This document shows, in pieces, positions 4,232 through 62,160 of a stretch of 64,000 nucleotides of DNA; the first letter of the stretch is position 1, and the number at the start of each line of letters is the position of its first letter. Position numbers and translations under genes: made by a program. Below the pieces are notes generated by a model. The model did no database searches, was not told where the DNA came from, and saw nothing but the letters and a program-made list of their open reading frames with translations. This DNA comes from Massilia putida (GTDB lineage Bacteria > Pseudomonadota > Gammaproteobacteria > Burkholderiales > Burkholderiaceae_D): NCBI RefSeq assembly GCF_001941825.1, contig NZ_CP019036.1:14167-78166 (forward strand). Reading direction: 5' to 3'.

Positions 4232-4266
4232 AACGGCAGCGCTGCTTTGCCCAGCGCCGCCGTTTT
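4232..4266 (+). terminator. Rho-independent terminator between convergent units
   Basis: A GC-rich hairpin (arms around CGGCAGCGCTG and CAGCGCCGCCG) is followed by TTTT at 4263-4266. It closes the plus-strand gene before it meets the end of the transfer operon, and merges into the first 16-bp palindrome. Confidence 0.65.
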
Positions 4267-4279
4267 CGCGTCCGCGAAA
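4264..4279. repeat. Backbone palindrome copy 1 (KorB/parS-like)
   Basis: TTTCGCGTCCGCGAAA, abutting the stop codon of the last gene of the transfer operon. One of eleven copies of TTTCGCG-NN-CGCGAAA spread over the plasmid backbone. Confidence 0.85.
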
Positions 4280-6217
4280 TCAGCGGGTACGTTCTAGCTC
4301 AGGCTGTCGCGCCTGCCTTGAGGGGGAGGATTTTTCCGCTACCTGGGGCGCGGGCAGCTTCATATCGCCCTTTTCGACGGAGGCGTTGAATCGTCCAAGG
4401 ACTTCACGGCGCAGGTCTTCGGGATATTTCGACAGCTGCTTGTCCAGCACCTTGAAGGCCGCCTCGACCTTGACCTTTTCGTCCGGTGAAAGCGTCCGCA
4501 TCACGACCAGGCCGGCCGGCTTGACTTCCCATTCGTTGCGCTTGGCAGGTACCTGTTGCTCGCCAATGACCTTGCCCGCACCGTCGCGCACGTTGGCTGT
4601 CACCTGGACGCTCTGTTGGTCGTTGAGCTTCAACGAGATTCCGTCCCCGGCCTTGAACTTGCCGTCGCTCATCGAGCGCTCCAGATCCTTGCCCCATACC
4701 GTTCGTTCTCCTGCCTGCGTCTGCAGCTTCACGTAGTAACTCTGCTTCTCGTCCGGATCGTGCTTGTAGTTCGCGCGTCCATGATCGAGCAGGCGTCCAA
4801 CGATCGGGGTCTTGCCTTCACCCGGTGCATCTGTTTTGGCTTGAGCCTGATCCGGGGTGTCCTTGCGGCTTGCAGTTGGTTCAGCTGCAGTGTTCGGACT
4901 AGCTGGGTTAGCCGATGCGCTCTTAGTGCCGCGTTGGTCGGCTTTCTCTGCTGCTTCCAGGCGCCCGGCAGATCGTGTTCCGGTACCTAAAATTTCTTCC
5001 CGCGTTGCTGCCTGCCGAGCTTTCGCCAAATCTAGCTCAACTTCAACCGCCGCCCTCTGGTTCGGTGTCAAGCCGTTCATGATCTTGGCGGATTGAGGAC
5101 CTTCGCCCAAGGTCAATATCTGCTTTGCAGCTTCTTGAACCCGCTCCAGGTCTGGAAAGCGCGAGGCCGACTGCACTTGGCTATTTGTCGAGGGGGTATT
5201 AATCTCGCGGTCTACCTTGACCTCGATAGTGTTCTTGACGTCCTTGTCCGCCTTTCCAGCGCTGACGGCCGGATCGCCGGCGACGCCGCGTTCGCGCTTG
5301 AGTTGCTCCAGCTGCTGCAGGTCGTGTTGGGTAGGCTCGTAGCCCTTGGTACGCAGGCCGCGCGATTCGGCCTCCAGCCAGGCCGTTTGTCTGAACGAGT
5401 CAGTACCTTTCAACTCGATTTGATTCCAGTTTTTAGCCGCGGCGATGGCCACCATGTCCGCGATCGTGGCGCGATCTTCAACGGTAGTCGACAACTTCTT
5501 GCCGTGGTCCTGGAAGCGCAGCGTGTCCGACTCCTTGTCGTGGTATTTCCCGTCCCTGACCATATACGACGTCAGGATCTGCTCAGGCAAGTCATAGCCG
5601 GTTTTTTTCAGTACCGGCTTGCCGGCAGCCGGCTCGCCTTGTTCGGCGGCGCCAGGGCTTGGCTTGTCAGCCTTCGATCCGACAACCGAGGCATCGACGG
5701 CTGGCCCGGCAGGTTTGGCGGGATCTGCCTTGTCGAGCGTGACGCCGGATTTTGCGTGGGCCGAGGACTTGTCATTGTCCTTTGCTTCTGCCGGTGCTTT
5801 CGGCTCATCCGGCGATTTCGCGTCCTTGGCCACGCGACGGTCGAAGGCTTCGGTGTTCAGGGGCAGCTTTTGATAGAAGCTGTCCAGCACGGTTTCTCCG
5901 GTACCGCGCACATAGCGGCCGTCCTTCTCGATCGGCTCGATCTTGCGGCCGACGTCGACGTCATTGTGGATGTTCGACTTCGCGTGCACGGCGAGCGGAT
6001 TGGCCTTCTCGTTGACCAGGATGTCTTGCCCCTTGGCCTGGAACTGTTCGGCCTTCTTCATCGCCTGCTGGAAGTCGGGCGTTTCGTACTGCAGGGCGTA
6101 CGTGTTGTTCTCCTTCACGTACACCCGCAGCGGCGGTGCGTCAGGCGCTGGTCGATCGGCCGGCTTCGCCTGCGCGGTGTCCCGCTGGGGATCGTTCGAT
6201 GCTTCGATGGTGTTCAT
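4280..6217 (-). CDS. LPD7-domain, KfrB-like C-terminal domain plasmid transfer protein
   Basis: A 645-residue, mostly polar protein, last in the transfer operon. Around residues 210-310 it has the LPD7 pattern (FQDHGKKLSTTVEDRATIADMVAIAAAKNW... ELKGTDSFRQTAWLEAESRGL), a domain common in relaxases and associated conjugation proteins. Around residues 490-590 is a KfrB-type segment (VGRLLDHGRANYKHDPDEKQSYYVKL... VWGKDLERSM). The parts between are low-complexity Ala/Lys/Pro linkers. No relaxase catalytic tyrosine or HUH motif is visible, so it is probably an accessory to a relaxase encoded outside the window. Domain names are recalled from family patterns; exact role unknown. Confidence 0.7.
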   Translation of the reverse strand: MNTIEASNDPQRDTAQAKPADRPAPDAPPLRVYVKENNTYALQYETPDFQQAMKKAEQFQAKGQDILVNEKANPLAVHAKSNIHNDVDVGRKIEPIEKDGRYVRGTGETVLDSFYQKLPLNTEAFDRRVAKDAKSPDEPKAPAEAKDNDKSSAHAKSGVTLDKADPAKPAGPAVDASVVGSKADKPSPGAAEQGEPAAGKPVLKKTGYDLPEQILTSYMVRDGKYHDKESDTLRFQDHGKKLSTTVEDRATIADMVAIAAAKNWNQIELKGTDSFRQTAWLEAESRGLRTKGYEPTQHDLQQLEQLKRERGVAGDPAVSAGKADKDVKNTIEVKVDREINTPSTNSQVQSASRFPDLERVQEAAKQILTLGEGPQSAKIMNGLTPNQRAAVEVELDLAKARQAATREEILGTGTRSAGRLEAAEKADQRGTKSASANPASPNTAAEPTASRKDTPDQAQAKTDAPGEGKTPIVGRLLDHGRANYKHDPDEKQSYYVKLQTQAGERTVWGKDLERSMSDGKFKAGDGISLKLNDQQSVQVTANVRDGAGKVIGEQQVPAKRNEWEVKPAGLVVMRTLSPDEKVKVEAAFKVLDKQLSKYPEDLRREVLGRFNASVEKGDMKLPAPQVAEKSSPSRQARQPELERTR

Positions 6218-6285
6218 AGGAGTGTGCTCCTGTTGGATGAAAGGGTATGCGGCTTACAGCTGGGACTTCATGGCAGCGTCCGCAT

Positions 6286-8166
6286 CTACGCTGCTTTGGC
6301 CATTTCTTCTTCCGCTGCTTCGTCAGGTACGAAGCTGGCGAAGTCGAAGCCGATGGCATCACCGATGGCCTGCAAGATCGCGGCCTTGTTGAGGATGTCG
6401 TCAGCGTCGGTTTGCTCGATTTCCTCTTGTCGCATCACGCGCGTGCGGTGCATCGCGCGCTTGATTTCGAGGGGCGGCACGGCCGGCACCGGGAAGCCCA
6501 GGCGCTCTTTCAACTCCGGGTCTTCGTGATAAATGATCTTGTCCGCGAAGATCGGTTTGCAGTTTTCCATCGAGATCAGCAGCTTCTTGAACCCGATTTC
6601 TTTCACTTCCTGCGGCAGCATGAGCGCGCGCTTTTGTTCGGAATCGCTGTGACCAGTACCGGGCTTTCCGGTCGTGCGCGAGATCGAACGGGACTTCACC
6701 GTTTGGTAGCCCAACGTCTCTGAATATTCCTTCGCGTCGGCTTCTTCCTTGGGCTGGTACATGATCTTGAGAGCGCAGTTCGTCAGCAGCGTTTTCGTCC
6801 CCTGGACACCGTAACCGCGACCTTCGTCCCCGATCAGCTGGCCATTGTTCTGATAGATCAGAACAGCCCGCATGTTGTACGCGGCCTGATAGCCGATCGC
6901 CTTGGCCAGGATTGCGATACGGCCGAGCGCGGCCACCTCGTCCAGCAGCAGCAAGCATTGGTATTTCAGCGACGGATCATGTTCGGGCAGGACGCGCGTG
7001 TTCTCGTTCATCAGCTGGGAGAAGAACACGTTCATGAGCACTTCGTAGCGCACCAGGTCTTCGGGCGTCATGCCGATGTACAGCGAGATCTTCCGGCGGC
7101 GCAGATCGCGGAAATCGAAGTCGTCGCCCGAGGTCGCCGCCGCCAGGCGCGGATCGCGGAAGATGTCGAGCGGTGCCATCAGCGTGCTAAGGATGTTGGA
7201 GCGCGTCTTGTCGGTTTGGGTGGCGTAAGTCCGCAGAGATTCAACGCACTCCGGGGACAGTCGCGGCAGGCCATTTTCGGGATTCTCGCGCTTCAAAATC
7301 GTGGCCTCGATCCATTCATGCAGGCCGCTACCGTCAGCCGGCGTAACGAGGCGCACCAGGTTGGGCATCGTGACTGGTTCGTCAGGAGTCTCCAGCATGT
7401 AGAGCACCAGGCCCAGGAACAGTGATCGCGCGTTGTCGTTGAAAAAGGCGTCCTTGCCGCCTGTCGGCCACCACATCGTCCCGATGTTTTGGATGTCGCC
7501 CACGCGGAATTCGTACGCTCGACGCACGTACGACAGCATGTTCCAGCGATGCGAAAGGAACTCGGGATGGCCAGGCGCGAACAGGTAGCATTCTTGGCCG
7601 TGTGCCGCACGATACCCGGCCGTCAGATGCCAGTTTTCGAGCTTGATGTCTGTGGCGACAACGGAATGCGGATACGTCAGCAGATTGGGGATCACAAGAC
7701 CGACGCCCTTGCCGCTGCGCGTCGGCGCTGCAAGGCTCACGAACTGCTGGCCGAAGAACGTAAGGAACTTTCCTTTGTACTTGCCGACCAGGATGCCAGG
7801 CCATTTTTCGTTTTCGCCGTCGCCAAGCAGGCCCGCTTTCTGGATCTCGGCCGTCTTGGCAAATCGTGCGCTACCGTGCAATTCGCGCTTCGAGCCGCTG
7901 AGAAGGGCGGCGATCGCCAGAACGACCGGCACTACCGGGACAGCGATCGAGAAGACGTAGCCGAGCTGGAGCGCAGCGCGGACCTTCTTGATGTGGCTGT
8001 AGTCGTGCCAATAGTTGCTGAGCGTGTCGACGTTCACCGTTTCTGGCGGAATGTGCTGCATGGCGGCGAAGGCGCGGCCGCCCAGGTAACGACCGAGGAA
8101 CCAGAAGCCGGTAACGACCACGGCGCCCATCACGGCCGCCACCGCGTACTTTGCTATTTTCGACAT
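6286..8166 (-). CDS. virD4: VirD4/TraG-type conjugative coupling protein
   Basis: A 626-residue inner-membrane ATPase that links the relaxosome to the secretion channel. It has two N-terminal transmembrane helices (VMGAVVVTGFWFLG and VFSIAVPVVPVVLAIAALL), a Walker A motif APTRSGKGVG near residue 150 and a Walker B strand LLLLDEVAALG near residue 400, plus the conserved KTLLTNC...KIMY region. Length matches VirD4 of VirB/D4 systems. The start at 8166 follows AGGAG at good spacing. It follows virB11 by 19 bp and precedes the LPD7 gene, as expected for a single transfer operon. Confidence 0.95.
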   Translation of the reverse strand: MSKIAKYAVAAVMGAVVVTGFWFLGRYLGGRAFAAMQHIPPETVNVDTLSNYWHDYSHIKKVRAALQLGYVFSIAVPVVPVVLAIAALLSGSKRELHGSARFAKTAEIQKAGLLGDGENEKWPGILVGKYKGKFLTFFGQQFVSLAAPTRSGKGVGLVIPNLLTYPHSVVATDIKLENWHLTAGYRAAHGQECYLFAPGHPEFLSHRWNMLSYVRRAYEFRVGDIQNIGTMWWPTGGKDAFFNDNARSLFLGLVLYMLETPDEPVTMPNLVRLVTPADGSGLHEWIEATILKRENPENGLPRLSPECVESLRTYATQTDKTRSNILSTLMAPLDIFRDPRLAAATSGDDFDFRDLRRRKISLYIGMTPEDLVRYEVLMNVFFSQLMNENTRVLPEHDPSLKYQCLLLLDEVAALGRIAILAKAIGYQAAYNMRAVLIYQNNGQLIGDEGRGYGVQGTKTLLTNCALKIMYQPKEEADAKEYSETLGYQTVKSRSISRTTGKPGTGHSDSEQKRALMLPQEVKEIGFKKLLISMENCKPIFADKIIYHEDPELKERLGFPVPAVPPLEIKRAMHRTRVMRQEEIEQTDADDILNKAAILQAIGDAIGFDFASFVPDEAAEEEMAKAA

Positions 8167-8185: not shown

Positions 8186-9241
8186 TCAAACGTCGGAATC
8201 GCCGCGCAGCATCTTTGCGCGCCGCGCCGGGTCGTAATAAAGGTCGGTCATTCGCGTCCGCGAAAATTGGGCTACCACGTCGATCGACGTGCTGACCAGG
8301 CGGTAGATATGGCTCCAGTCCAGGGACATGCCGACTTCGCTTTGCTTGATGAGCGTGGCGATTCGGCTGTGCGCCGCCAGCGGCGTGTTCGCGTGCGTCG
8401 TCGTCAGCGAGCCGGGATGGTCCGTGTTGAGCGCCGAGATATAGTCGAACGCTTCGTCGCCGCGCAGCTCCGTCAAAAAGATCCGGTCCGGCTTCATGCG
8501 CATGCACGACTTCAACGCATCACGCGGGGTAACGAAGTCGCCGTAGAACAGGTGAACCTTGTTTTCGTGCAGCGGCAGGTTCAGTTCGTGGACGTCCTCG
8601 ATCGTGATGATTCGGGTATCGGTAGGCACCAGGTCGCTAAGCGCCTTCATGAAGGTGGTCTTGCCGCTGCCGGTACCGCCCGAAATGCAGACGTTCAGCT
8701 TGTGGTCAATGCACAGTTGGAAGAAGCGCTGCATGTCGCGCTTCTCCTTTGCTTCGAGAATTTCAAGCTCGAAGTCCTGCAGGTGCACGCCGGCCGGTAC
8801 CTGCCGAAACACGGACACGTCCTTGAAGTTGGCGAGCCGGCCGGTGCTGATGTATTCCGACATCGGATACCGTTCGCCCCCGCCGAGGCGGAACGCGAGC
8901 GCTACGGTTCCTTCCGGGCAGGCGGGCGGGATCACCAGCTGGCCGCGCTGCCCATCGGGCAGGTGTACCGACTTGATGGGCGAGCGGATGTCGAGCGCCG
9001 TACCGCCATGAAAGATCGACGCGGCGTTGGCCAGCTCGCGCAGCAGCTGGAGCGAGCATTGCGGCACATCGTGGCGGGTCCGGCCGGCGGACGATTCCGT
9101 GAAAATCACACCCGGCTCGTTGACCTCGACATCGGTTAGACCAGGCATGTCGAGGAACCGTTGAATGCCCGCCTGCTTTAGCTTTTCGCGCAGCGTAACG
9201 CTCTTGTCGTAGGCCGCGACATTAGTACCGAGCGAGTTCAT
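8186..9241 (-). CDS. virB11: VirB11 secretion ATPase
   Basis: A 351-residue hexameric ATPase of the type IV secretion system, cytosolic face of the inner membrane. It shows Walker A SGGTGSGKTTF, the Asp box IITIEDVHEL, a Walker B region with DRIFLTELRGDEAF, and the His box TTTHANTP, in the family order. The ATG at 9241 is chosen because GGAG lies six bases before it; a GTG six bases earlier is possible. It overlaps the end of virB10. A copy of the 16-bp palindrome lies in the coding region near its 3' end. Confidence 0.95.
   Translation of the reverse strand: MNSLGTNVAAYDKSVTLREKLKQAGIQRFLDMPGLTDVEVNEPGVIFTESSAGRTRHDVPQCSLQLLRELANAASIFHGGTALDIRSPIKSVHLPDGQRGQLVIPPACPEGTVALAFRLGGGERYPMSEYISTGRLANFKDVSVFRQVPAGVHLQDFELEILEAKEKRDMQRFFQLCIDHKLNVCISGGTGSGKTTFMKALSDLVPTDTRIITIEDVHELNLPLHENKVHLFYGDFVTPRDALKSCMRMKPDRIFLTELRGDEAFDYISALNTDHPGSLTTTHANTPLAAHSRIATLIKQSEVGMSLDWSHIYRLVSTSIDVVAQFSRTRMTDLYYDPARRAKMLRGDSDV
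8250..8265. repeat. Backbone palindrome copy 2
   Basis: ATTCGCGTCCGCGAAA inside virB11, one base off the consensus. It reads through as coding sequence. Confidence 0.75.
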
Positions 9242-10535
9242 AGACACTCCCGAAGTCGAGGTCGCGCGCGACGAAAATATTGATGGCCTCGCCTTGGAGG
9301 CTGTAGCCGGTAGGCGGGATGTTGATGGTCTTGTCGAGCGCGCGCCCGGCCAGGTCTTGGCCAGCGTTCGCGGTCGTCGTCAGGCGAATCGTTCCTTCGG
9401 CATTCGATGCCTTGTTGGCGGCCGCTTGGCCCAGGTCGCTAATCAGGCTGAGCATGATGGCGGCGCCGAAGCGCTTGCGCCAGTGTTCATCGACATCTAC
9501 AGGCAGGCCCGAGGCGCCGAGCGTGTCTGTTGCGAGCGAGTTGATGTCGATGACGACACCGCGCGGCGTCACGATGCGGTTCCACAGGACCGGCATCAAT
9601 TCCTGTCCGAGCTGGAGCGGCTGGGAGCGTTCGCCCAGGACTTGGCTTCCACGCTCGATGAGCAAGGTCGAGCCATTGGCCGAGTACACGTCTTTCGAGA
9701 CGACGCATGAAGTCTGCCCCGGATTCGTGCTCACGATAAGCGTCCGCTGGCCACAGGGGATCGTCGTGCTTGCCAACAGCATGAGATCCAGGCTGCGATG
9801 GCGAGACGCCGACGTTGCGTGCAGTTGGCTTGGCTTGAGCGATTCTTCCAGGCCGCTCTTGTTCGCGTCCATGCGAGGCACGCCGAGCTGCGCTGGCATC
9901 ATGCCGTTGTCGGCTGCCCGGCCAGGCATGGCCGCTTGTGGTTCGCTGCCGGTGGACACCAGCACTTCGCCCGAAAGCCTGCGTTGCCGAGGCGTTTCTA
10001 CCTGCGGCCGTTGTTGACCTGCGTAGGCGCCTTGGCCTTGTGGGTACTGGCCAGGTCCGCCGGCACCCCCAGCACCGTTCGCGCCGTTCGGCACGCCAGC
10101 GCCGTTCGGGCCGCCAGGACCAGTTTTCGCGGACGCGAAATCAGACGCGCCGTTGGCCGGCACAACGCCGATGGCGCCGGACGGTGGCGGCAGCTGCGAT
10201 GCCGTGGTTTGTGGAGCCGGCTGGCTTGCCTCGTCCTCGGCCTTGATACGCTTCTTGACCGCATCCAGGTTCAGGGTCGCGACGTCGGTGTTGGCCACGG
10301 CGGTTTGCTGCTTTAGCTTCTCGGCCTTTTGCTGCACGGCGCGATCCTTGAGCCGCTGCATGAAAAGGGCCGAGCCGATCACCAACATGACCACGGCGAG
10401 CAAGATAGCGACTGTGATCGCCAGGCGCTTGACACCGCTTTTCTTTTTCTTCGTCAGCAGCTTTGGAATGTCGCGGTCGACATTCACGTCTTCGTGTTCG
10501 GCCGGGCTGGCCGAAGCGGGGTTCATCGTGTTCAT
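9222..10535 (-). CDS. virB10: VirB10/TrbI channel protein
   Basis: A 437-residue bitopic protein that spans both membranes of the type IV secretion channel. It has a short cytosolic N-terminus with a KKKK stop, a single transmembrane helix (LAITVAILLAVVMLVIGSALF), a long Pro/Gly/Ala-rich periplasmic linker, and a C-terminal TrbI/VirB10 beta-barrel domain with the helical antenna region. The start forms an ATGA overlap with virB9, which implies translational coupling. A palindrome copy lies in the linker coding region (10125-10140). Confidence 0.95.
   Translation of the reverse strand: MNTMNPASASPAEHEDVNVDRDIPKLLTKKKKSGVKRLAITVAILLAVVMLVIGSALFMQRLKDRAVQQKAEKLKQQTAVANTDVATLNLDAVKKRIKAEDEASQPAPQTTASQLPPPSGAIGVVPANGASDFASAKTGPGGPNGAGVPNGANGAGGAGGPGQYPQGQGAYAGQQRPQVETPRQRRLSGEVLVSTGSEPQAAMPGRAADNGMMPAQLGVPRMDANKSGLEESLKPSQLHATSASRHRSLDLMLLASTTIPCGQRTLIVSTNPGQTSCVVSKDVYSANGSTLLIERGSQVLGERSQPLQLGQELMPVLWNRIVTPRGVVIDINSLATDTLGASGLPVDVDEHWRKRFGAAIMLSLISDLGQAAANKASNAEGTIRLTTTANAGQDLAGRALDKTINIPPTGYSLQGEAINIFVARDLDFGSVYELARY
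10125..10140. repeat. Backbone palindrome copy 3
   Basis: TTTCGCGGACGCGAAA inside virB10, in the part coding for the variable linker, where extra bases are tolerated. Confidence 0.85.
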
Positions 10536-11362: not shown

Positions 11363-12144
11363 TGTGCGCTCCCCTCGGCCTTGGTTGCAGAGGCTTCATC
11401 CTTCGTGAAGTCGGATGCCACGGCGTAGCTGTTGACCTGGAAGCCGGACACGTTATAGCCGCGCTCTTGGTCGTCCATCGCCTTGTTCTCGTAGCCATAC
11501 GCGATCGTGGCGACGTAGTACTTCGTGGCCGGCGCCTTGTCGCCGGTAAGCGATACAACACGCTTCGAGAACGAGACGAGTGCGGTTTTGCCGATCCATG
11601 ACACGGTTCCGGCCTTCGCGATCACGCGGTACTTGTCGCGCAGGACGTTGACCGGCGCGGCCTGATTGGTTTCGGCGTTCTGCGCTCGATAGATGCTTTG
11701 CTCGCGCGGCGACGACATCGACATCGTTGCGTCGAACGTGTCCTGAATGGTTTCCCAATCGTAGGACTCGCGCAGTTCGACATACCGGCGCAGGTTGTAC
11801 AGGTCGGTCGCTTGGCTATACGAGATTTTCGCGTCCGCAAGTGTCTTGAGCACGTGGACATCGCCTGTGTCGGCCACCTGGAGCACGGCCGGCGGGTTCG
11901 GCTTGTTGTTCAGGACGACGATGCCGGACGTGACGATCGTTACGAGCGTCACCAGCATGGCACCGCCCGCGACACGCCAGGCGACGGACTTGCTCTTGCG
12001 CGCGTCTTCGGTCTTGTCGCGTTCAGCGGTCATCGCCTGTTCCAGGTACCACTTGGCGGCTTGATCGTGCCAGGCCGCTTCCTGTTGGGCCGTGGCTGGT
12101 TGTTCTGCAGTGGCCGAAGTGCGCTTGAATTTTTCCATCAACAT
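11359..12144 (-). CDS. virB8: VirB8 inner-membrane assembly protein
   Basis: A 261-residue bitopic protein that nucleates the inner-membrane complex. One transmembrane helix (AGGAMLVTLVTIVTSGIVVL) follows a cytosolic N-terminus, then a periplasmic NTF2-like domain with the conserved YVELRESYDWETIQ segment. The ATG at 12144 is used because the longer reading overlaps virB7. A degenerate copy of the 16-bp palindrome is present at 11827-11841 with a damaged right arm. Confidence 0.93.
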   Translation of the reverse strand: MLMEKFKRTSATAEQPATAQQEAAWHDQAAKWYLEQAMTAERDKTEDARKSKSVAWRVAGGAMLVTLVTIVTSGIVVLNNKPNPPAVLQVADTGDVHVLKTLADAKISYSQATDLYNLRRYVELRESYDWETIQDTFDATMSMSSPREQSIYRAQNAETNQAAPVNVLRDKYRVIAKAGTVSWIGKTALVSFSKRVVSLTGDKAPATKYYVATIAYGYENKAMDDQERGYNVSGFQVNSYAVASDFTKDEASATKAEGSAQ

Positions 12145-13974: not shown

Positions 13975-13990
13975 TTTCGCGTCCGCGAAA
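13975..13990. repeat. Backbone palindrome copy 4 (twin, left)
   Basis: TTTCGCGTCCGCGAAA in the 79-bp gap between virB4 and virB5. It is paired with another copy 26 bp away, suggesting an internal control point of the operon. Confidence 0.88.
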
Positions 13991-14000: not shown

Positions 14001-14016
14001 TTTCGCGTCCGCGAAA
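14001..14016. repeat. Backbone palindrome copy 5 (twin, right)
   Basis: TTTCGCGTCCGCGAAA, same orientation as the neighbouring copy at 13975. Start-to-start distance is 26 bp, about two and a half helical turns. Confidence 0.88.
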
Positions 14017-19308: not shown

Positions 19309-19336
19309 CAGGATTTTCGCGTCCGCGAAAATCCTG
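19309..19336. repeat. Backbone palindrome copy 6, extended
   Basis: The 16-bp core at 19315-19330 is extended to 13-bp arms, CAGGATTTTCGCG and its complement, around a TC centre. It lies just after the mnmH stop and could also act as a terminator stem. Confidence 0.88.
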
Positions 19337-19351: not shown

Positions 19352-19367
19352 TTTCGCGGACGCGAAA
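19352..19367. repeat. Backbone palindrome copy 7
   Basis: TTTCGCGGACGCGAAA, opposite orientation to copy 6 and 37 bp away, between convergent mnmH and the hydroxylase gene. Confidence 0.88.
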
Positions 19368-25426: not shown

Positions 25427-25442
25427 TTTCGCGGCCGCGAAA
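25427..25442. repeat. Backbone palindrome copy 8
   Basis: TTTCGCGGCCGCGAAA, with a symmetric GC centre instead of the usual TC, about 90 bp upstream of the parA operator. Confidence 0.85.
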
Positions 25443-25515: not shown

Positions 25516-25562
25516 TTTGTCAATCAAAATAGATTGACAAAGCTATGAGCGACAGCTATACT
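25516..25562 (+). promoter_or_regulatory. parA promoter with overlapping operator
   Basis: Inverted repeat TTTGTCAATC, six bases, GATTGACAAA (25516-25541) contains the -35 TTGACA (25534-25539). A 17-bp spacer leads to TATACT (25557-25562). The same arrangement occurs at 60241-60287 and 60329-60375. A leader motif ATCAACGTAA follows at 25645. Confidence 0.85.
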
Positions 25563-25670
25563 GACTTCGTAGTGATGAAGGCCACTGGCCGATCGTAGCG
25601 CTGCGAAACCGGCAACATAGCCGGCACCTAAGAATACAAACCATATCAACGTAATCCGATGAGGTCAGTT

Positions 25671-26468
25671 ATGAAAATGAAATCTGTCGCTGTTGCGAAC
25701 CCCAAGGGCGGGATCGCCAAGAGCGCCGTTTCGGTGAACCTTGGGCATCAATCGATCGAGCAGGGCAACCGGACGTTGTTGGTGGACTTTGACAAGCAGG
25801 GCAGCCTTTCGCTGGCATTTCCGCGTACGGCAGATCCCTCAAAGCGATACATCAAGACGGTTGACTTGTTCGGGACGCCGGATGGGCTGGTTGGTGCGGA
25901 GCTTGAGTACGTGACTCCTACGGTGGCGATCATTCGCGCCGAGAAGGAGGACTTCGAGGCATTGAGGGCCTTGGAGCGGGCGCCGGATGATTTCGCAAAG
26001 CGGCCGGCGCGCGTGTTGCGCGAACTGTCGGACAAGTTCGAGGTTGGCGTTTTCGATACACCAGGTGTTATCGGGGTGCCTCTGCTGGCCGCGTTGACGG
26101 CGGCTGATGCGGTCGTGTGTCCGCTGGCCCTCGGCCTGTTTGAGACGGATGGCCTGGCGCAGCTCTGGCAGATCATTCGCCAGGTGAAATCCGGCGGCTT
26201 CAATCCGAAGTTGCGCATGATCGGCATGTTGCCGTCCCGCGTGAATACGCGCGACAAGATGGCGATGGCCGAGTTGGAAAGTCTGCGCAAGCATCCCCAG
26301 CTTGGGCCGATCATCTTGCCGTTCATGCTGGCGGAAAGGGTACCGGTGGCTCGCGCGATCAACATGCGCAAGCCGGTATGGCAGGGTGCGAAAACGGCTT
26401 CGCACAAAGCGGCTGGACAGGAATGGAAGCATGCCTGCAGCCACGTATTGACGAGTTTGGAGGGTTAA
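25671..26468 (+). CDS. parA: ParA/IncC-type partition ATPase
   Basis: A 265-residue deviant-Walker ATPase for plasmid segregation. The P-loop is NPKGGIAKS, followed by the NLGHQSIEQGNRTLLVDFDKQGSLS segment and the Walker B-like GVFDTPG. It lacks an N-terminal DNA-binding domain, so it is the IncC-like short form (type Ib). The ATG at 25671 is used because GAGG precedes it; an ATG 12 bases earlier has no site. It is followed after 3 bp by parB, forming an IncC-KorB style pair. Confidence 0.92.
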   Translation: MKMKSVAVANPKGGIAKSAVSVNLGHQSIEQGNRTLLVDFDKQGSLSLAFPRTADPSKRYIKTVDLFGTPDGLVGAELEYVTPTVAIIRAEKEDFEALRALERAPDDFAKRPARVLRELSDKFEVGVFDTPGVIGVPLLAALTAADAVVCPLALGLFETDGLAQLWQIIRQVKSGGFNPKLRMIGMLPSRVNTRDKMAMAELESLRKHPQLGPIILPFMLAERVPVARAINMRKPVWQGAKTASHKAAGQEWKHACSHVLTSLEG

Positions 26469-26471
26469 ACG

Positions 26472-27617
26472 ATGACCGCGCAGGTTTACGATTTTGGGGA
26501 CGCTCTCGGCGCCGGGTTTGCTGAAATGATGGAGTCCGGACGAGGCTACCAACTGGCGGTCGTGAAGTTTTCCGACATCAAGGTATCGCCGCAGATCCGC
26601 GAACAGATGGAGGACGAGACGAGCACGCTGCAGGAAATGGGCGGCAGTATCAAGCAGCACGGCATCTTGCAGACGATGTTGCTTCGACCGATCCCAGGTC
26701 CGATCCCGTACGAGCTGGTTGCCGGCGGCCGTCGCTATGCTAGTGCGACCCTTGTTGGCGAAACCGAAGGGCCATGCCTCATCAAGGAAATGACCGACGA
26801 GCAGAAGGACGACATTCAGCTTGCCGAGAACATCCAGCGGAAAAATCTTACGCAGATTGAGGAAGCAAAGAAGGTGCAGCGGGATCTCGACGCGGCCAAT
26901 GGCGATGTCGAGGCCGTCATGGCCAAGCATCACAAGGGCCGTGCGTGGGTGTCGAAGATGCTTGGGTTATTGAAGTTGTCGGACCAGGCCCGGCGTCTGC
27001 TGTCGGAAAATATCAGCGCCGACCTTGAAGTGATCGGCAAGGTCAAAGCGATCGAGAAGGTCGATCCCGAGGCCGCGAAAAGCCTTGTGGACGAATTGGC
27101 CGCCACGCGCGGTAAGGAGGACGCCAGGAAGAAGGCCGATGCGGTGAAGGATCGCGTGAAGCCGAAGGCCGAAAAGTCGGCGCCTGCAGATCCGGCCGCC
27201 GAGAGCGATACGCGCACGCTGACATTACCAGGTGTCGACGCGGTAAAAAATTTCGCGGACGCGAAAATCGAGCAGCCTGCACAGGTTGCAGCCAAATCGT
27301 CCGCAGTTGATGCGCGCCAGTTTCTGGACCGGGCCTATGGGCTGATTTTCGAGGACGGGGCTAGTCCGAAAACCGTTGCAATGTCGTGGGAAGAGGGCGA
27401 ACGCGCGGCAGTTGAAGCGGTCCTTCATAAGCACTATCACGACGGTAGCGTGATCTCCGAGGCGAAGGTACCGCGTGAAATCATGCAGGGCCTGCGTGAC
27501 GGTAAATTTGGCGCAGATGGTGTTGGCGCCTTCGCCATGATGGCGTTCCTTCATGGCACGATGAAGGATGCACAACCGTTCGACGTCGTTCAAATTCTCG
27601 CGTTGGCTAAAGCGTGA
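26472..27617 (+). CDS. parB: ParB/KorB-like partition and regulatory protein
   Basis: A 381-residue ParB. The N-terminal nuclease-like domain has ELVAGGRRYASA and ENIQRKNLTQIEEAK, the ParB/CTP motifs. A helix-turn-helix region covers about residues 120-200 (HKGRAWVSKMLGLLKLSDQARRLL). The C-terminal part is a linker and dimer domain. By analogy with IncP KorB it may both centre the plasmid and silence promoters at a distance. I infer that it binds TTTCGCG-NN-CGCGAAA, of which one copy lies in its own coding region. Confidence 0.88.
   Translation: MTAQVYDFGDALGAGFAEMMESGRGYQLAVVKFSDIKVSPQIREQMEDETSTLQEMGGSIKQHGILQTMLLRPIPGPIPYELVAGGRRYASATLVGETEGPCLIKEMTDEQKDDIQLAENIQRKNLTQIEEAKKVQRDLDAANGDVEAVMAKHHKGRAWVSKMLGLLKLSDQARRLLSENISADLEVIGKVKAIEKVDPEAAKSLVDELAATRGKEDARKKADAVKDRVKPKAEKSAPADPAAESDTRTLTLPGVDAVKNFADAKIEQPAQVAAKSSAVDARQFLDRAYGLIFEDGASPKTVAMSWEEGERAAVEAVLHKHYHDGSVISEAKVPREIMQGLRDGKFGADGVGAFAMMAFLHGTMKDAQPFDVVQILALAKA
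27251..27266. repeat. Backbone palindrome copy 9 (inside parB)
   Basis: TTTCGCGGACGCGAAA in the linker region of parB, reading FADAK. Confidence 0.88.
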
Positions 27618-27672
27618 CGATCGAGCCGGGCCGGTTCTACCGGTCCGGAGTGTGTTTTCTCCAGGAGCGATC

Positions 27673-28152
27673 ATGAGCTTACAAGATGCTGTTGAAGTGC
27701 TGACCAGGTTGGGAAGTGGCCAAGAGCTACCCGGTCGATCGCAGATCATCGCCGCCGCGCTGGCGGCAGAGACGGTTACGCTTGATATGCCGGGTCGAGA
27801 TATTCAGGATGCCGCCGCCGGCTTGAAGACTCTCGCTGTTGGTCAAAGGCTGTTTCTGGATGAGGCCGGCCGCGCGCGCGCATTGCACTTGGCTAATGTT
27901 CTCGCTGCTTATGACTGGCGGAAGGAGCGCGGCTATGTTGGGCGCGGTGGGGTCGTCGTTTTTTATGCCGGGAAAATCAATAGCTGGGTGAATGAGCTGC
28001 GTAACCCGGATCATTGGGTTGCTGGAGCTGTTGCCGTGAACGAGGCAGGGAATTCATGGCTTGCTATCGGGGGCGACGAACAAAATGGTGCGACCGCGTG
28101 GAAACCCCAATGGGTTGATGGCCGGATTGCCGAAGTAGTAAGTACATCATAA
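27673..28152 (+). CDS. Unknown protein between parB and korA
   Basis: A 159-residue protein, no family recognised. It starts at an ATG after AGGAG. The middle contains LPGRSQIIAAALAAETVTLDMPGRDI and KRLFLDEAGRARALHLANVLAAYDW-like helical parts, and the end reads GGDEQNGATAWKPQWVDGRIAEVV. A GC-rich hairpin lies between parB and this gene (27626-27650). Its place in the control block suggests a role in plasmid maintenance, but nothing in the sequence proves it. Confidence 0.65.
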   Translation: MSLQDAVEVLTRLGSGQELPGRSQIIAAALAAETVTLDMPGRDIQDAAAGLKTLAVGQRLFLDEAGRARALHLANVLAAYDWRKERGYVGRGGVVVFYAGKINSWVNELRNPDHWVAGAVAVNEAGNSWLAIGGDEQNGATAWKPQWVDGRIAEVVSTS

Positions 28153-28159: not shown

Positions 28160-28525
28160 ATGCCTAAAACCCTTCATCGTAGCCTCACGCCGGCTGAGTT
28201 TCATGCGTGCGTGCCTTTGGTTCCCCAACTGTCGCCGGAACGTGTCTCAGCTGCGCGCGCTGTATTGGTGGACGATGAAAAGCAGGTTGAGGTAGCAAAC
28301 CGGTACGGGATCACCAGGCAAGCCGTAAATGGCTCCGTCAAAGCCATGTGGGAAATCTTTCAGAGCTACCAGGCCGCAAAACAGATCGAGGTCGACATGA
28401 CCGAGGCGGCGTTGCCTCCAGGCTGGAGGGTAGCCACGGTGGCCGCACCAGGCGAAATGCTAGACCGATTGCGCGTGGACGCGGCCGCAGCAGCAGCAGC
28501 AGCAGCGGCCGGAATCGAGTGTTGA
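28160..28525 (+). CDS. korA: KorA/TrfB-family repressor
   Basis: A 121-residue helix-turn-helix repressor matching IncP KorA by eye: LTPAEFHACVPLVPQLSPERVSAARAVLVDDEKQVEVANRYGITRQAVNGSVKAMW aligns with LTESQFQEAI...IARGVLVDGKPQATFATSLGLTRGAVSQAVHRVW. It would repress plasmid maintenance promoters. I infer that its target is the GRTTGACAAA inverted repeat found at three promoters. The C-terminus ends in a run of ten alanines encoded by a GCA repeat, which is not in IncP KorA. Confidence 0.85.
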   Translation: MPKTLHRSLTPAEFHACVPLVPQLSPERVSAARAVLVDDEKQVEVANRYGITRQAVNGSVKAMWEIFQSYQAAKQIEVDMTEAALPPGWRVATVAAPGEMLDRLRVDAAAAAAAAAAGIEC

Positions 28526-43740: not shown

Positions 43741-45099
43741 TCAGCAGTCCGCCGATGGTTGGCGATAGATGAACGCCAGTCCGCTGGCGGCGTCGGACCT
43801 GAGGTTGCGCAGGGTGACCGTCCCGCCGAGGCGCGCCGCCGCCGCGCGGACAATGGCCAAACCCAGGCCGCTGCCGGGCTGGCCGGATCCAGGAATCCTG
43901 AAGAATGGATCGAACACACGCGATAACTGCTCCGGTGGGATGCCCGGCCCCGTGTCGTCGACTTGGAACACGGCGTCATCGCCGTCCGGGTATAGGCGCA
44001 CATCGACCTTGCCGCCGGACGGCGTGTACAAGACTGCGTTTTCGATCGCGTTTCTCGCCAGTGCTCGGAAATCGTGCTCGCTGCCCAGCAAGGTCAGTTC
44101 GTCACCAACGACGAGGCCGAGGTCGACGCCTTTCGCATCCGCGACAGGAAAGACTTCGGCGATCGCCTCAACGACAACGGGGCGTCCGTCAAATCGCACA
44201 GGCGCATGCACAGAAGGAGCTTGCATGCCGGCGAGCGAGAGCAACTGTTCGACGACCATTCGCATGCGTTCCAGTCCTGCACCAATCGGAGAGAGGGTCG
44301 CCTGCAGGGCAGGAGAAGCTTCAGGGCCGCCCAAGGCATTTTCCAAGTGCAGTGTCATGGCCGTGACTGGCGAGCGCAATTCGTGTGCGGCCGAGGCGAC
44401 AAATTGCCGGTGCTTCGACACCGCGCTGTCGACGCGTTCCAGCAGGCGGTTCGTCGCGGCGACGAAGGGAATGATTTCAGCCGGCACCGCCGTCATTCCC
44501 AGCGGTTCGAAATCGCCATTGCCCTTCTGGTCCACCTGGTGGGCGACCTCGCCGACCTTCTCCAGCAGCACCCGGACCAGGATCGCGGTCAGCAGCACGA
44601 GTATCGGAATCACGATGAGAAAAGGCACGAGGGTCCGCAAGGCACTGTCGCGCGCGATCTCGTCGCGCGCAGACGTACGCTGCGCCACCGCGAGGCCATG
44701 TTCACTGTCGATCGTCCTGGCGTACAGGCGCCAGGATTCCCCTCGCGACTGCACTGTGTGCAAGCCATCGGTCAGGTTGGCCGGCAGGGTCAGCATCAGG
44801 TCGGGTGTCCTGACCAGCGTCCCGCCCTTGAACGTGCGGATGACCCAGATCCGCATTTCCGGCTCATCGTTGGCCGAAGGCTGTGCCTCGGACGAAACGA
44901 CGGTTCTGTTCTTCAGTTGCACGAGCTGGGCGATCTCCCGCAATTCGTCATCTTGTAAATCCTTGGCCTCGTCGAAAGCAAATTGGAACGACACGAAAGC
45001 GCCTATGATTCCGACCACAAGGATTGCGCTGCAGATGGACGCGGACAGCATCGAGCGCAGGGAGCGAGAGCGCGTCACGGTTCTTTTGGAATCATCCAT
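43741..45099 (-). CDS. Sensor histidine kinase (QseC/PmrB-like)
   Basis: A 452-residue membrane kinase with two transmembrane helices (SASICSAILVVGIIGAFVSF, TLVPFLIVIPILVLLTAILVRVLL) around a periplasmic sensor, H-box AHELRSPVTA, and an ATPase with N-box, DTGPGIPPEQLSRVFDPFFR and GSGLGLAIVRA. It is thought to sense metal or cationic stress. The ATG at 45099 has a G-rich site just upstream; an ATG at 45114 is an alternative that overlaps the regulator gene. Confidence 0.9.
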   Translation of the reverse strand: MDDSKRTVTRSRSLRSMLSASICSAILVVGIIGAFVSFQFAFDEAKDLQDDELREIAQLVQLKNRTVVSSEAQPSANDEPEMRIWVIRTFKGGTLVRTPDLMLTLPANLTDGLHTVQSRGESWRLYARTIDSEHGLAVAQRTSARDEIARDSALRTLVPFLIVIPILVLLTAILVRVLLEKVGEVAHQVDQKGNGDFEPLGMTAVPAEIIPFVAATNRLLERVDSAVSKHRQFVASAAHELRSPVTAMTLHLENALGGPEASPALQATLSPIGAGLERMRMVVEQLLSLAGMQAPSVHAPVRFDGRPVVVEAIAEVFPVADAKGVDLGLVVGDELTLLGSEHDFRALARNAIENAVLYTPSGGKVDVRLYPDGDDAVFQVDDTGPGIPPEQLSRVFDPFFRIPGSGQPGSGLGLAIVRAAAARLGGTVTLRNLRSDAASGLAFIYRQPSADC

Positions 45100-58568: not shown

Positions 58569-58584
58569 TTTCGCGGACGCGAAA
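58569..58584. repeat. Backbone palindrome copy 10
   Basis: TTTCGCGGACGCGAAA in the divergent gap between the small gene and the SOS locus, 34 bp before the LexA box. Confidence 0.88.
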
Positions 58585-58618
58585 ACGGCTCACCCTTGCC
58601 AAAACATGAACTAGCCGG

Positions 58619-58638: not shown

Positions 58639-58652
58639 TTTAGGCATTTTTC

Positions 58653-59000: not shown

Positions 59001-59004
59001 CGCC

Positions 59005-59724: not shown

Positions 59725-59741
59725 ATCCGCGATCGCGGCCG

Positions 59742-59866: not shown

Positions 59867-59913
59867 AGAAGAAGGTTTTTCCCTGCCTGCGATCTTCGTC
59901 ACACGGCAGGGAT

Positions 59914-59930
59914 GCCCCGCCGTGCGGGGC
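59914..59930. terminator. GC hairpin before convergent gene
   Basis: GCCCCGC, CGT, GCGGGGC at the convergent junction. No strong U-run. Confidence 0.4.
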
Positions 59931-59936
59931 CGGGCC

Positions 59937-60173: not shown

Positions 60174-60240
60174 GATTAACCTCTTGCTTACGTTGATAAG
60201 AATTTCTATTTACTGATGAATCTCTGTTCACCATGAGATT

Positions 60241-60287
60241 AGTATATTCCCGGCCTATATCTTTGTCAACCTAAATAGGTTTACATA
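60241..60287 (-). promoter_or_regulatory. Promoter/operator of the small coiled-coil gene
   Basis: On the minus strand: imperfect inverted repeat with GGTTGACAAA (60271-60262), -35 TTGACA (60269-60264), 17-bp spacer, and -10 TATACT (60246-60241). Leader motif ATCAACGTAAGC at 60197-60186. Divergent from the promoter at 60329. Confidence 0.82.
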
Positions 60288-60328
60288 AGATTGTATTTTC
60301 TAATCGGGCCGAATAAACCGTTCAATAT

Positions 60329-60375
60329 TTTGTCAATCTATATAGGTTGACAAAGCGGATTTAGGGGACTATACT
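60329..60375 (+). promoter_or_regulatory. Promoter/operator of the DUF932 gene
   Basis: TTTGTCAATC, TATATA, GGTTGACAAA (60329-60354) covers -35 TTGACA (60347-60352). 17-bp spacer, TATACT at 60370-60375. Leader motif ATCAACGTAAGC at 60425 and AAGGAG before the start. Confidence 0.88.
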
Positions 60376-60451
60376 TGTATTCAAGGTAGACGAACGATCT
60401 ACCGGTAAAAAAGCAAATCACTTAATCAACGTAAGCTAAAGGAGAAATACC

Positions 60452-61279
60452 ATGAAACTCGCAACCCGCTTTGGCCGCAACAATACCTCCGTCCGTTCGA
60501 GCATCCCGCTCACCAACGACGAAATCCGTCTCGTGGCCCCGTCGATCTTTGCGGAAGAAAAGCACGACAGCCGCTCGGAGCGTTACACCTACATCCCGAC
60601 GATTCACGTCCTGGACAACCTGCGCAAGGAAGGCTTCGAGCCGTTCATGGCCTGCCAGGCTAAATGCCGCGATGAAGGCAAGCGCGAATTCACCAAGCAC
60701 ATGCTGCGCCTGCGCCACGCAAGCCAGATCACGACCGGCGAGGCCAACGAGATCATCTTGCTCAACAGCCACGATGGCACCAGCAGCTATCAAATGCTGG
60801 CCGGCACCTTCCGCTTCGTGTGCAGCAACGGCATGGTGTGCGGCGATACGCTCAACGATATTCGCATCCACCACAAAGGAAACGTCGTTGACAACGTGAT
60901 CGAAGGCGCTTTCCGCGTCGTCGACGACTTCGAGCGCATCGACGGCCAGATTGTCGACATGAAGTCGTTGACCCTGAACCAAGGCGAGCAACAAGCCTTC
61001 GCACATGCAGCGCTGGCACTCAAGTACGACACGGAGATTGCGCCGGCACCGATCACCGAACGCCAGATCCTGACTCCGAAGCGCCGCGACGATGCTGGTG
61101 ACGATCTGTGGCGCACCTTCAACCGCGTGCAAGAACGCATGCTGCAAGGTGGCGTTCCGGGCCGCGCTGCCAACGGCCGCAACATGACCACGCGCGCGGT
61201 TACTGGTATCGACCAAGGCATCAAGCTCAACCGGGCGCTGTGGCTTCTGGCCGAGAAGATGAAAGAGTTGAAGGCGTAA
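60452..61279 (+). CDS. DUF932 plasmid protein
   Basis: A 275-residue cytosolic protein of DUF932 (phage/plasmid-like TIGR03299 relatives). Core: YTYIPTIHVLDNLRKEGFEPFMACQAKCRDEGKREFTKHMLRLRHASQ... NEIILLNSHDGTSSYQMLAGTFRFVCSNGMVCGDTLNDIRIHHKGNVVDNVIEGAFRV. The family is common on plasmids and phages but its role is not established. It has one of the strongest predicted promoters of the window. Two small genes follow after a terminator. Confidence 0.85.
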   Translation: MKLATRFGRNNTSVRSSIPLTNDEIRLVAPSIFAEEKHDSRSERYTYIPTIHVLDNLRKEGFEPFMACQAKCRDEGKREFTKHMLRLRHASQITTGEANEIILLNSHDGTSSYQMLAGTFRFVCSNGMVCGDTLNDIRIHHKGNVVDNVIEGAFRVVDDFERIDGQIVDMKSLTLNQGEQQAFAHAALALKYDTEIAPAPITERQILTPKRRDDAGDDLWRTFNRVQERMLQGGVPGRAANGRNMTTRAVTGIDQGIKLNRALWLLAEKMKELKA

Positions 61280-61287
61280 CGGCCGGG

Positions 61288-61310
61288 GAGGGGCGCCGTC
61301 CCCCTCTTTT
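61288..61310 (+). terminator. Terminator after DUF932 gene
   Basis: GAGGGG/CCCCTC stem with TTTT at 61307-61310. Confidence 0.7.
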
Positions 61311-61341
61311 ATGTGGACGTTGGAAATCATAGGAGCGACCC

Positions 61342-61596
61342 ATGAAAACCCGAATGATGGGCCAGGCGCTGCAGGCCAATAAGCGCGCCCGTACCCAGGC
61401 GCGCCGCCTCGGCGCGATCGTCAAGCAGTACCAGGACGACCCGGAGCGCAATTACTGGCGGCATAGTGAGGCGGTATCGCTTGCTCGCAAGGTGTCTGCC
61501 AACTGGCGGACGTTTGAGACGGTCGGGCGCGTCATCCTGACCGACCGCGGCGACCGCCGGCAAGTGTTTTTGCCGGACGTCGACTCGGCCGTGTAG
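61342..61596 (+). CDS. Small basic unknown protein
   Basis: An 84-residue basic protein (MKTRMMGQALQANKRARTQARR, then LGAIVKQYQDDPERNYWRHSEAVSLARK). AGGAG precedes the ATG. It could bind nucleic acid, but no motif is recognised. Same strand as the DUF932 gene and followed by another small gene after 18 bp. Confidence 0.6.
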   Translation: MKTRMMGQALQANKRARTQARRLGAIVKQYQDDPERNYWRHSEAVSLARKVSANWRTFETVGRVILTDRGDRRQVFLPDVDSAV

Positions 61597-61614
61597 CCGC
61601 AGCTGGAGGACGTC

Positions 61615-61929
61615 ATGATTCATCACAAACACATCCCGACGCCGGTTGTGGCACGCGCACTCATCGCAATCGAAATGGAGAAAATGCCGTTTGGCGCCCT
61701 TTCAGACGAACGCCGCGACGAGATCGCGCGCGGTGCGCTTGGACCAGTGCTTTTCGTGATCGAGGCTTTGCAGATCGCGGCAGAATCCGGCGCCGACGTG
61801 GACGCAGTAGTAAGGCACTACATCGGTTCGGTAGCGGCTGAAACGGAGCTTGAGAAGAGGGAGCAACACTTTCACGACCTCATCACGCGCTTGCAGACCA
61901 GGACGCCGCCCGGCCGACTGTCTAGCTGA
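61615..61929 (+). CDS. Small helical unknown protein
   Basis: A 104-residue helical protein starting MIHHKHIPTPVVARALIAIEMEKMPFGALSDE, with LEKREQHFHDLITRLQTR near the end. GGAGG precedes the start. No family recognised. It is followed by copy 2 of the structured repeat, in the convergent position. Confidence 0.6.
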   Translation: MIHHKHIPTPVVARALIAIEMEKMPFGALSDERRDEIARGALGPVLFVIEALQIAAESGADVDAVVRHYIGSVAAETELEKREQHFHDLITRLQTRTPPGRLSS

Positions 61930-61967
61930 TCCGGCCGCGTCCGCACGGCCAGCGGCAAACACCTTCC

Positions 61968-62097
61968 GCTGGAGGCCAAACAAGGCAACGTGTGAAGGAT
62001 CGAGGGGGCGCGCCAGCGGGCCGGTCTTTCGCTTTAGCGGCCTGTCGCCCGTTCAGGGCGACACCCCCCGCATCACGGCGCTCATCCAGAGCGTCCG
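61968..62097 (-). repeat. Structured repeat, copy 2
   Basis: Complement of copy 1 (59742-59866). Read on the minus strand it comes ~65 bp after the stop of the 54-residue gene, the same relation as copy 1 to imuA. Hairpin TGTCGCCC/GGGCGACA is kept. Confidence 0.88.
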
Positions 62098-62144
62098 GTC
62101 GCGCTGGTTGATGAGAGGAACAACGGTTGAACGATGCTCGACGT

Positions 62145-62160
62145 TTTCGCGCCCGCGAAA
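62145..62160. repeat. Backbone palindrome copy 11
   Basis: TTTCGCGCCCGCGAAA, abutting the stop codon of the 54-residue gene, as copy 1 does for the transfer operon. Confidence 0.85.

Follow-up and report, generated by a model that had tools for sequence, protein, structure and literature searches.

The 64,000-nucleotide stretch of Massilia putida DNA analysed here (the window; positions 14167-78166 of the plasmid contig NZ_CP019036.1, hereafter C1) carries a repeated 16-bp palindrome, TTTCGCG-N2-CGCGAAA, that with high probability acts as the nucleation site, both operator and parS, of the ParB protein encoded at 26472-27617. The initial annotation of this DNA had proposed the same function, and the comparison of related plasmids makes that proposal very probably right. 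The palindrome is strongly enriched on the plasmid, is confined to it within the genome, co-occurs with one group of ParB proteins and, in some related plasmids, has changed its centre in a way that the copies of one plasmid share.

Palindrome copies on the plasmid contig

C1 (78,166 bp) is one of three contigs of a 7,523,017-bp genome. The window holds ten exact copies and one copy with a single mismatch (Table 1), all at the coordinates first reported, and nine of the 11 have the TC or GA centre that had been ascribed to them. The eleventh exact copy, at position 9087 of the contig, precedes the window, and with it all 11 exact copies of the 7.5-Mb genome fall on C1. The other two contigs hold none, so that the equal density in the host chromosome that the initial annotation had named as the outcome contrary to its proposal is not what we find, and a reversed-pattern control gave no match in the whole genome. 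At up to two mismatches the window contains 12 matches, against a mean of 0.86 and a maximum of 3 in 100 shuffled sequences, while a blind enumeration of perfect palindromes on C1 ranks TTTCGCG-N2-CGCGAAA first with 11 occurrences, the next 7-bp arm at the same spacing occurring once. The shuffles, the genome count and the blind palindrome count rule out a chance origin of the copies.

A further degenerate copy had been proposed at 11827. It has three mismatches and, because matches of this kind number 15 on C1 and are not above chance, we left it uncounted. The sites do mark the backbone, as had been suggested: 11 exact copies lie on C1 and the transposon block at 28691-56787 lacks them. The claim that this block is empty holds at up to one mismatch (none of the 11 window sites falls there, for which the chance under uniform placement is 0.0017) but not at two mismatches, since the twelfth match, at 44131, lies inside it. 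Apart from 44131 the sites are dispersed over the backbone, as is typical of the KorB family.

The palindrome accompanies a group of ParB proteins

We searched a plasmid collection with the window ParB, which matched 838 records, and picked 18 of them, taken from the upper list (H1-H6, H8-H10, H15, H20 and H24) or included as six distant negatives (H7, H11, H14, H19, H26 and H30). Ten related plasmids bearing such a ParB carry 4-13 copies each of the shorter form TTTCGC-N4-GCGAAA, and nine of the ten have it in the exact form: KC170282 (pMBUI6) with 12 copies, NZ_AP023178 with 12, NZ_CP059562 with 4, NZ_CP070495 with 10, NZ_CP100554 with 12, CP098607 with 12 (not independent, because it is apparently a near-twin of NZ_CP100554), NC_013930 (pTK9001) with 5, and the genome contigs G408 and G074 with 7 each, those of G074 all on the contig that encodes a 47%-identical ParB. 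The reversed-pattern control gave no match in any motif record. No exact copy was found in NC_008342, NZ_CP065409, AP019756, NZ_AP025673 or NZ_CP029374, nor in the genomes G063 and G107, which have Nitrosomonas-type ParBs, and the six distant ParB plasmids are without TTTCGC-N4-GCGAAA. These motif-free ParBs, some of them similarly close overall, are mostly accompanied by another repeated palindrome.

Four records were chosen by ParB similarity before any motif was counted, and these gave 5 exact copies in NC_013930, 12 in CP098607, 2 in G811 and none in pRA2. In G811 one of the two lies on the ParB contig and the other on another contig, so that the test with the exact motif failed on the ParB contig; the 13 copies of TTTCGC-N4-GCGAAA on that contig were seen afterwards, through the blind count. 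In the reverse direction, genome contigs were scanned with the motif only (in so large a collection single matches are mostly chance), and 200 of the 240 motif loci listed were searched for the transfer and control proteins of the window. Among the matches listed, virB homologues occur at four motif loci, three of them in G399, G406 and G407, and the fourth led to the type IV secretion contig of G408, a metagenome-assembled genome of the Oxalobacteraceae, with seven copies, one of them within a parB whose product is 50% identical to that of the window. A class-level search of 369 genomes matched the own genome only. At the family level, where 392 genomes were searched, three matched: besides the own genome these were G811 and G849, and G849 and G408 are apparently one genome. 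Viral contigs searched for further ParBs gave 13 weak relatives only.

When 18 window proteins were compared with nine motif plasmids (NC_013930 being represented by 15 kb only, and G074 and G408 by the fetched contigs only), ParA and ParB alone had homologues on all nine; eight further window proteins, compared at a stricter limit, came nowhere near this coverage. NZ_CP059562 has the sites with no match to the window Vir proteins, and neither it nor NC_013930, which also has sites, shows a KORA match at E<=0.01. Conversely, pRA2 (NC_005909), whose KorA shares 83% identity with the pMBUI6 protein, has no site. From these three patterns and the coverage of ParA and ParB we conclude that the sites track ParB, not KorA or the transfer system, and a tie of the motif to the type IV secretion system is rejected on account of NZ_CP059562. 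What pRA2 has of parB (L355, 11932-12465) is a remnant that matches the C-terminal 125 residues of pMBUI6 ParB at 91% identity, the rest being missing; it adjoins a recombinase gene, a Tn3-type element and a korA-type gene.

The palindrome could instead be the operator of a KorA/TrfB-type repressor. KorA-type proteins bind palindromes, and the window has korA downstream of parB, as do eight of the ten motif records (own genome among them) in which KORA was sought. This is nonetheless very improbable: besides the two site-bearing plasmids that lack a KORA match, pRA2 and RA3 have KORA above the cut-off and no site, the Nitrosomonas, Acidovorax, Paracidovorax and Diaphorobacter plasmids have weaker KORA matches and again no site, the sites clustered on NC_013930 follow parB directly, and a different palindrome, which covers the parA -35 box and recurs as a near-copy at 60330, is better suited to KorA.

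Strict arms, a variable centre and a copy inside parB

Eight plasmids together hold 75 exact copies and four one-mismatch copies. Of the 150 half-sites, 128 have T directly before the arm (position -1) and 90 have A one base further out (-2), and the motif probably extends to ATTTTCGCG-NN-CGCGAAAAT. None of the 75 copies has A as its first centre base or T as its second, and 50 have a GA or TC centre. The centre is uniform in Methylomonas (CC in 10 of 10) and in NC_013930 (CC or GG in 5 of 5). In G811, a sister plasmid (ParB 49% and VirB4 66% identical), 12 of the 13 copies have a centre of the CTCC/GGAG or CCCC/GGGG type, which breaks the inner dyad, and the copy within parB is among them. 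Two site positions appear orthologous between C1 and G811, that within parB and that at the virB4/virB5 junction, and both plasmids have a pair of sites at 37-bp pitch, with spacers that are partly alike, next to different cargo genes.

Six parB genes carry a copy in the linker, at the same place and in the same frame. It is translated FADAK in the window, pMBUI6, NZ_AP023178 and G408, whose site sets are rich in GA and TC, FAGAK in Methylomonas and FAEAK in G811; the middle codon thus varies with the plasmid's own centre and the arms stay constant. Such a centre-matched codon between fixed arms would be expected if the DNA word is conserved, and hardly if the peptide is. The parB genes of NZ_CP059562, NZ_CP100554 and G074 have no copy within them.

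This strictness also bears on the idea that the palindromes act as RNA hairpins, either intrinsic terminators or structures at mRNA ends. Several sites do lie at gene ends, and a loose terminator-like scan, run on three stretches that include all 11 sites, flags 25427 (+), 27251 (-) and 58569 (-). Yet the scan is barely above shuffled sequence (24 matches against 19.0, 7 against 4.1 and 8 against 6.3), TTTT occurs within 10 bases on either side at only 9 of the 75 sites, stem pairing would not need the strictness seen in 75 exact copies against 4 with one mismatch, and sites also lie within parB, virB10 and, in relatives, topA. We therefore judge terminators or hairpins unlikely in spite of the three flagged sites, and the chance that they explain the palindrome exceedingly small.

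Evidence that weighs against ParB as the reader

Several observations count against the assignment to ParB. In the window there is no cluster of sites beside parAB beyond the one upstream and the one within parB, and the centre is mixed within most plasmids, the window included. Identity to the window ParB is about 35-49% with the motif and 27-37% without it, so that the two sets overlap; the ParBs of the motif-free NZ_CP065409, NC_008342 and AP019756 are 36-37% identical to it, the recognition helix of NZ_CP065409 is very similar, and no single ParB residue was found that marks all motif plasmids. In NZ_CP059562 the blind count places the motif (4 copies) behind ATATAT repeats.

Copies also occur where no ParB of this group was found. 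A BLAST search with a tandem probe returned 24 plasmid records, five of them of this group, and six of the other 19 were counted: NZ_CP114116 has 1 copy, NZ_MK376351 2, NZ_LT963406 1, NZ_CP019429 2, AM157767 1 and JQ432563 1. A search of five of them for the window ParB gave weak matches in NZ_CP114116 only. The initial annotation had held that the motif should not be equally dense in unrelated plasmids; copy number there is indeed low, but the motif is not absent, with one or two copies on some. In the Aquabacterium genome G406, contigs C3 and C14 (L332-L336) carry five copies between them together with a type IV secretion system and other ParB-type proteins, of which a distant one, on a contig with two copies, is 26% identical over 100 residues; no ParB of the group was found there, nor in the metagenome-assembled genomes G407 (4 copies) and G399 (2). 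Viral contigs L171, L180, L187 and L191 have 2-3 copies spaced about 110-150 bp apart and no ParB. Two of these, L171 and L187, are filamentous-phage-like by gene content (secretin, Zot, G2P), and two or more copies are also present on the viral contigs L132, L221 and L239. Pseudomonas plasmids L306-L309 have one or two copies and no clear relative of the window ParB; on L307 and L308 the copies are 1-2 kb from a ParA gene. Across the 240 motif loci the only ParB-like match, among the matches listed, is one weak match (L225). Because copies without this ParB occur, the word alone is insufficient to name its reader, and the case rests on copy number per plasmid combined with the presence of the ParB.

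Such copies could mean that the palindrome is read by a DNA-binding protein of the host or by some other factor of plasmid or phage origin, as might be suggested by the Pseudomonas and IncP-1gamma plasmids with one or two copies, by the clusters on phage contigs and by the copies in G406. We give this explanation very little weight: the named hosts span beta- and gammaproteobacteria, the other contigs of the own host are without a copy, ParA and ParB alone of the 18 proteins are common to the nine motif plasmids, and the sharing of centres within a plasmid favours a plasmid-encoded reader.

The parA-parB-korA locus and the placement of the sites

On C1 the gene order is ParA, ParB, an open reading frame (ORF) without a family match and a KorA/TrfB-type gene, and a virB-type transfer operon is also present (Table 1).

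Table 1. Palindrome sites and features of the partition locus (window positions)
Feature	Position	Strand	Context
Site TTTCGCGTCCGCGAAA	4264..4279		directly 3' of LPD7 gene (4280-6217, -)
One-mismatch site	8250..8265		within virB11
Site	10125..10140		within virB10, translated FASAK
Site, first of pair (26-bp pitch)	13975..13990		between virB4 stop (14031) and likely virB5 ATG at ~13951
Site, second of 26-bp-pitch pair	14001..14016		
Site, first of pair (37-bp pitch, opposite centres)	19315..19330		behind rhodanese-domain gene (mnmH in the initial annotation)
Site, second of 37-bp-pitch pair	19352..19367		
Site	25427..25442		upstream of parA, 91 bp before -35 box of parA promoter
Site	27251..27266		within parB, linker between DNA-binding and C-terminal parts, translated FADAK
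Site	58569..58584		between resolvase gene and ORF 58653
Site, CC centre	62145..62160		intergenic or within unsupported ORF
Perfect inverted repeat TTTGTCAATC-AAAATA-GATTGACAAA, 10-bp arms	25516..25541		over parA -35 box
parA promoter TTGACA, 17-bp spacer, TATACT	25534..25562	+	11/12 consensus match
parA (AAA_31/CbiA ATPase)	25659..26468	+	PF13614/PF01656; directly upstream of parB
parB, proposed reader	26472..27617	+	ParB_N above cut-off, HTH_ParB just below; GxRR and ENxxR motifs
korA/TrfB-type gene	28160..28525	+	PF16509, E 7.3e-10; proposed partner, not motif reader

The longest virB5 ORF would overrun the 13975 site. Centromere-like features of the window are the site upstream of parA, the copy within parB and the two close pairs. 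Plasmid parS sites often lie at or near such a position beside parB, and in two relatives there are clusters behind this gene: on pTK9001 four copies (235299, 235367, 235437 and 235493) form a centromere-like row 10-219 bp behind the parB stop (235289), and on NZ_CP059562 two copies begin 17 and 63 bp behind parB (end 1849), and a further copy lies a short way ahead of parA, on the other side of the record start. In the three plasmids with whole-record gene tables, which are themselves incomplete, 20 of 28 sites are intergenic where 6.0 are expected, a number that none of 200,000 draws reached.

A role of the sites in partition is likely, and one in regulation somewhat more probable than its absence. 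ParB might also read the sites for partition only, in keeping with the clusters behind parB in two relatives and with a consensus scan in which a single window site of 11 (25427) has a promoter-like match within 200 bp. We think this restriction rather unlikely, as a centromere would hardly seem to need ten to twelve copies that are dispersed and mostly intergenic, and the distance of the 25427 site from the parA -35 box falls within the OB-distal range of RK2, going by the part of the report available (PMC11790492).

The inverted repeat over the parA -35 box has a near-copy with one mismatch at 60330-60353, over the -35 box of another TTGACA-17-TATACT promoter, and beside it a looser copy (about 60262-60285) lies over the -35 box of a divergent promoter, again of the TTGACA-17-TATACT type. 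The palindrome TTTGTCAATC-N6-GATTGACAAA is a candidate KorA-type operator and may define a KorA regulon; at up to three mismatches it is found on none of the other plasmids scanned. The ORF between parB and korA (27568-28152) has no Pfam or NCBIfam match, and a similar stretch was seen only in pRA2 among 18 plasmids compared.

The window ParB lacks the KorB domains

The initial annotation had called this protein KorB-like, which as a family statement is not supported. The window ParB matches PF02195 (E 6.2e-15) and TIGR00180 above their cut-offs, and has no PF08535 (KorB) match at E<=0.001 and no PF06613 (KorB_C) match, whereas three tested KorBs (IncU RA3, IncP-1gamma pMBUI1 and PromA pTer331) match both domains above cut-off; that the protein is a KorB is thus not borne out at the domain level. 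Three further ParBs of motif plasmids likewise have no PF06613 and, save for a marginal match in NZ_AP023178 (24.7 against 22.3 bits), no PF08535. In a tree of 17 ParB proteins, without G811 and NC_013930 and with several weak inner branches, the three KorBs stand apart from all others with 100/100 support. On this tree the motif label needs 2 changes against a shuffled mean of 5.8, and a single clade of motif-bearing ParBs is not rejected (p-AU 0.41). The best matches among solved structures are Spo0J and Noc (1vz0, E 1.6e-19; 7ng0, 2.9e-16), followed by KorB (8qa8, 1.6e-6), and the G-x-R-R and E-N-x-x-R motifs, which by motif correspond to KorB R117 and N146, are invariant across six aligned ParBs. 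The window ParB probably works like KorB, even though membership of that family is not supported by its domains.

Relation to known operators and to the words of other ParB groups

The layout does resemble that of KorB, as had been noted, with dispersed palindromes beside parAB and korA. The KorB of IncP-1 plasmids (RK2) is likewise a ParB-fold protein encoded with ParA (IncC) and KorA, and IncP-1 pMBUI1 has palindromes dispersed over its backbone as C1 does, with 9 exact operators. The accessible part of one study (PMC11790492) describes RK2 KorB as a protein that loads at OB, closes on cytidine triphosphate (CTP) into a clamp, slides, and is stalled by KorA, and the window ParB has the corresponding arginine and asparagine motifs. 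The differences from IncP-1 are equally clear: its operator is TTTAGC-N-GCTAAA, its KorB has PF08535 and PF06613, the window ParB is 22% identical to pMBUI1 KorB, and korA lies behind parB in the window, with one ORF between, in contrast to its place before incC on QKH54. C1 thus has a neighbouring korA gene without the family operator TTTAGC-S-GCTAAA, and the view that the window uses a new code holds, in that its word differs from TTTAGC-N-GCTAAA, of which C1 has 0 copies.

The blind count recovers known operators. On IncP-1gamma pMBUI1 it finds TTTAGC-N-GCTAAA nine times, which we take to be the known IncP KorB operator. On RA3 it finds TTCGTA-N2-TACGAA four times, tied with TAGGCC-N5-GGCCTA, and three positions, 2075, 9707 and 23579, hold the full 16-mer TTTCGTACGTACGAAA, adjoining the first stability gene, mobC and an eexN-type gene; this 16-mer contains TACGTA, the recognition sequence of SnaBI. 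KorB of RA3 acts at orf02p, mobCp, orf023p and parS, one site being named IR-SnaBI, according to the portions available of the two reports concerned (PMC7414963, PMC4175270). Probably IR-SnaBI (PMC4175270, likewise available in part) is TTTCGTACGTACGAAA, and the three RA3 positions would then be the reported KorB sites. Read in this way, IR-SnaBI is the nearest site known to us to the window word, nearer than the IncP operator, with the same length and the same outer TTTCG/CGAAA arms; it differs in two inner bases per arm, the RA3 ParB is 20% identical and has the KorB domains, and TTTCGC-N4-GCGAAA is absent from RA3.

Chromosomal ParB/parS and Noc, which provide the best structure matches, likewise have TTTC...GAAA arms. 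The chromosomal parS is TGTTTCACGTGAAACA, in which the TTTCAC and GTGAAA half-sites abut, whereas TTTCGC and GCGAAA in the window are 4 bp apart. For Deinococcus, the part available of one article (PMC7022226) lists parS as NGTTTcgcGtgaAACN.

PromA pTer331 has homologous virB transfer genes and a repeated palindrome with a copy within korB, but it lacks the motif, and its KorB carries PF08535 and PF06613, neither of which is present in the window ParB. Its palindrome, TTGGTCATGACCAA (L303; at 9736, 10749 and 17452, one copy within korB and one before mobC, and tied in the count with a GC-rich repeat), is a candidate PromA KorB operator. Other ParB groups seem to have words of their own. TGTTCGC-N3-GCGAACA occurs seven times in Nitrosomonas stercoris and four times in N. 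eutropha (L280, L282), and is a candidate parS of the Nitrosomonas group; three N. stercoris copies share a 270-bp stretch (6756-7022) that precedes the gene before parA. In the Nitrosomonas ParBs, whose half-sites are closer together by one base, the helix-turn-helix (HTH) region is longer by three residues. GTTTCCC-N2-GGGAAAC is present five times in Paracidovorax, where GCCGGC-type repeats outrank it in the blind count, and twice in Acidovorax, plus seven copies of the form with 6-bp arms (L283, L284, L299-L301, L326, L327); (G)TTTCCC-N2-GGGAAA(C) is accordingly named as a candidate parS of the Acidovorax/Paracidovorax group. TTTCTC-N3-GAGAAA, with seven copies in Diaphorobacter, is a weak candidate word.

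A literature search for the 16-mers with GA, TC, GG and CC centres and for the name pTK9001 found none of them, most subscription papers being outside its reach, and a search for TTTCGCG with ParB, plasmid or palindromes showed, among the titles listed, none pointing to this motif; the part available of one of the two papers that name pMBUI6 (PMC4290620) mentions no such site. What is new is very probably a recognition word, for a kind of plasmid inheritance and control system that is itself known.

Proposed mechanism and implications

A ParB dimer would read the two TTTCGC half-sites through its HTH and, with CTP bound, close into a clamp that slides away from each site. Loaded sites, above all the pairs, would together with ParA make up the plasmid centromere, while the scattered sites would load ParB along the backbone, where it could stop or tune transcription of parA and of the transfer genes. 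The KorA-type protein is probably a partner in such ParB-dependent control of transcription. In this scheme binding, CTP switching, partition and silencing are inferred.

More tentatively, and with somewhat less than an even chance in our estimate, a ParB branch outside KorB may have independently built a KorB-like, plasmid-wide operator network whose recognition words drift in concert. Under this reading the arms are strict and the centres of the Methylomonas plasmid, pTK9001 and G811 are nearly uniform, in some cases with the copy in parB included. If it is true, parB travels with its own centromere seed, and the series formed with TGTTCGC-N3-GCGAACA, GTTTCCC-N2-GGGAAAC, TTTCGTAC/GTACGAAA and TTGGTCA/TGACCAA would show the co-evolution of ParB and operator and an escape from incompatibility.

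The palindrome and its ParB, a protein outside the KorB domain family, form a proposed pair of operator and reader that can be tested. G811, with a ParB 49% identical and 12 of 13 centres changed, makes three things accessible to experiment: ParB specificity, the way in which a change spreads to many sites simultaneously, and the connection of partition with silencing. The words also provide a simple sequence tag with which plasmids of this kind may be found and typed in genomes and metagenomes.

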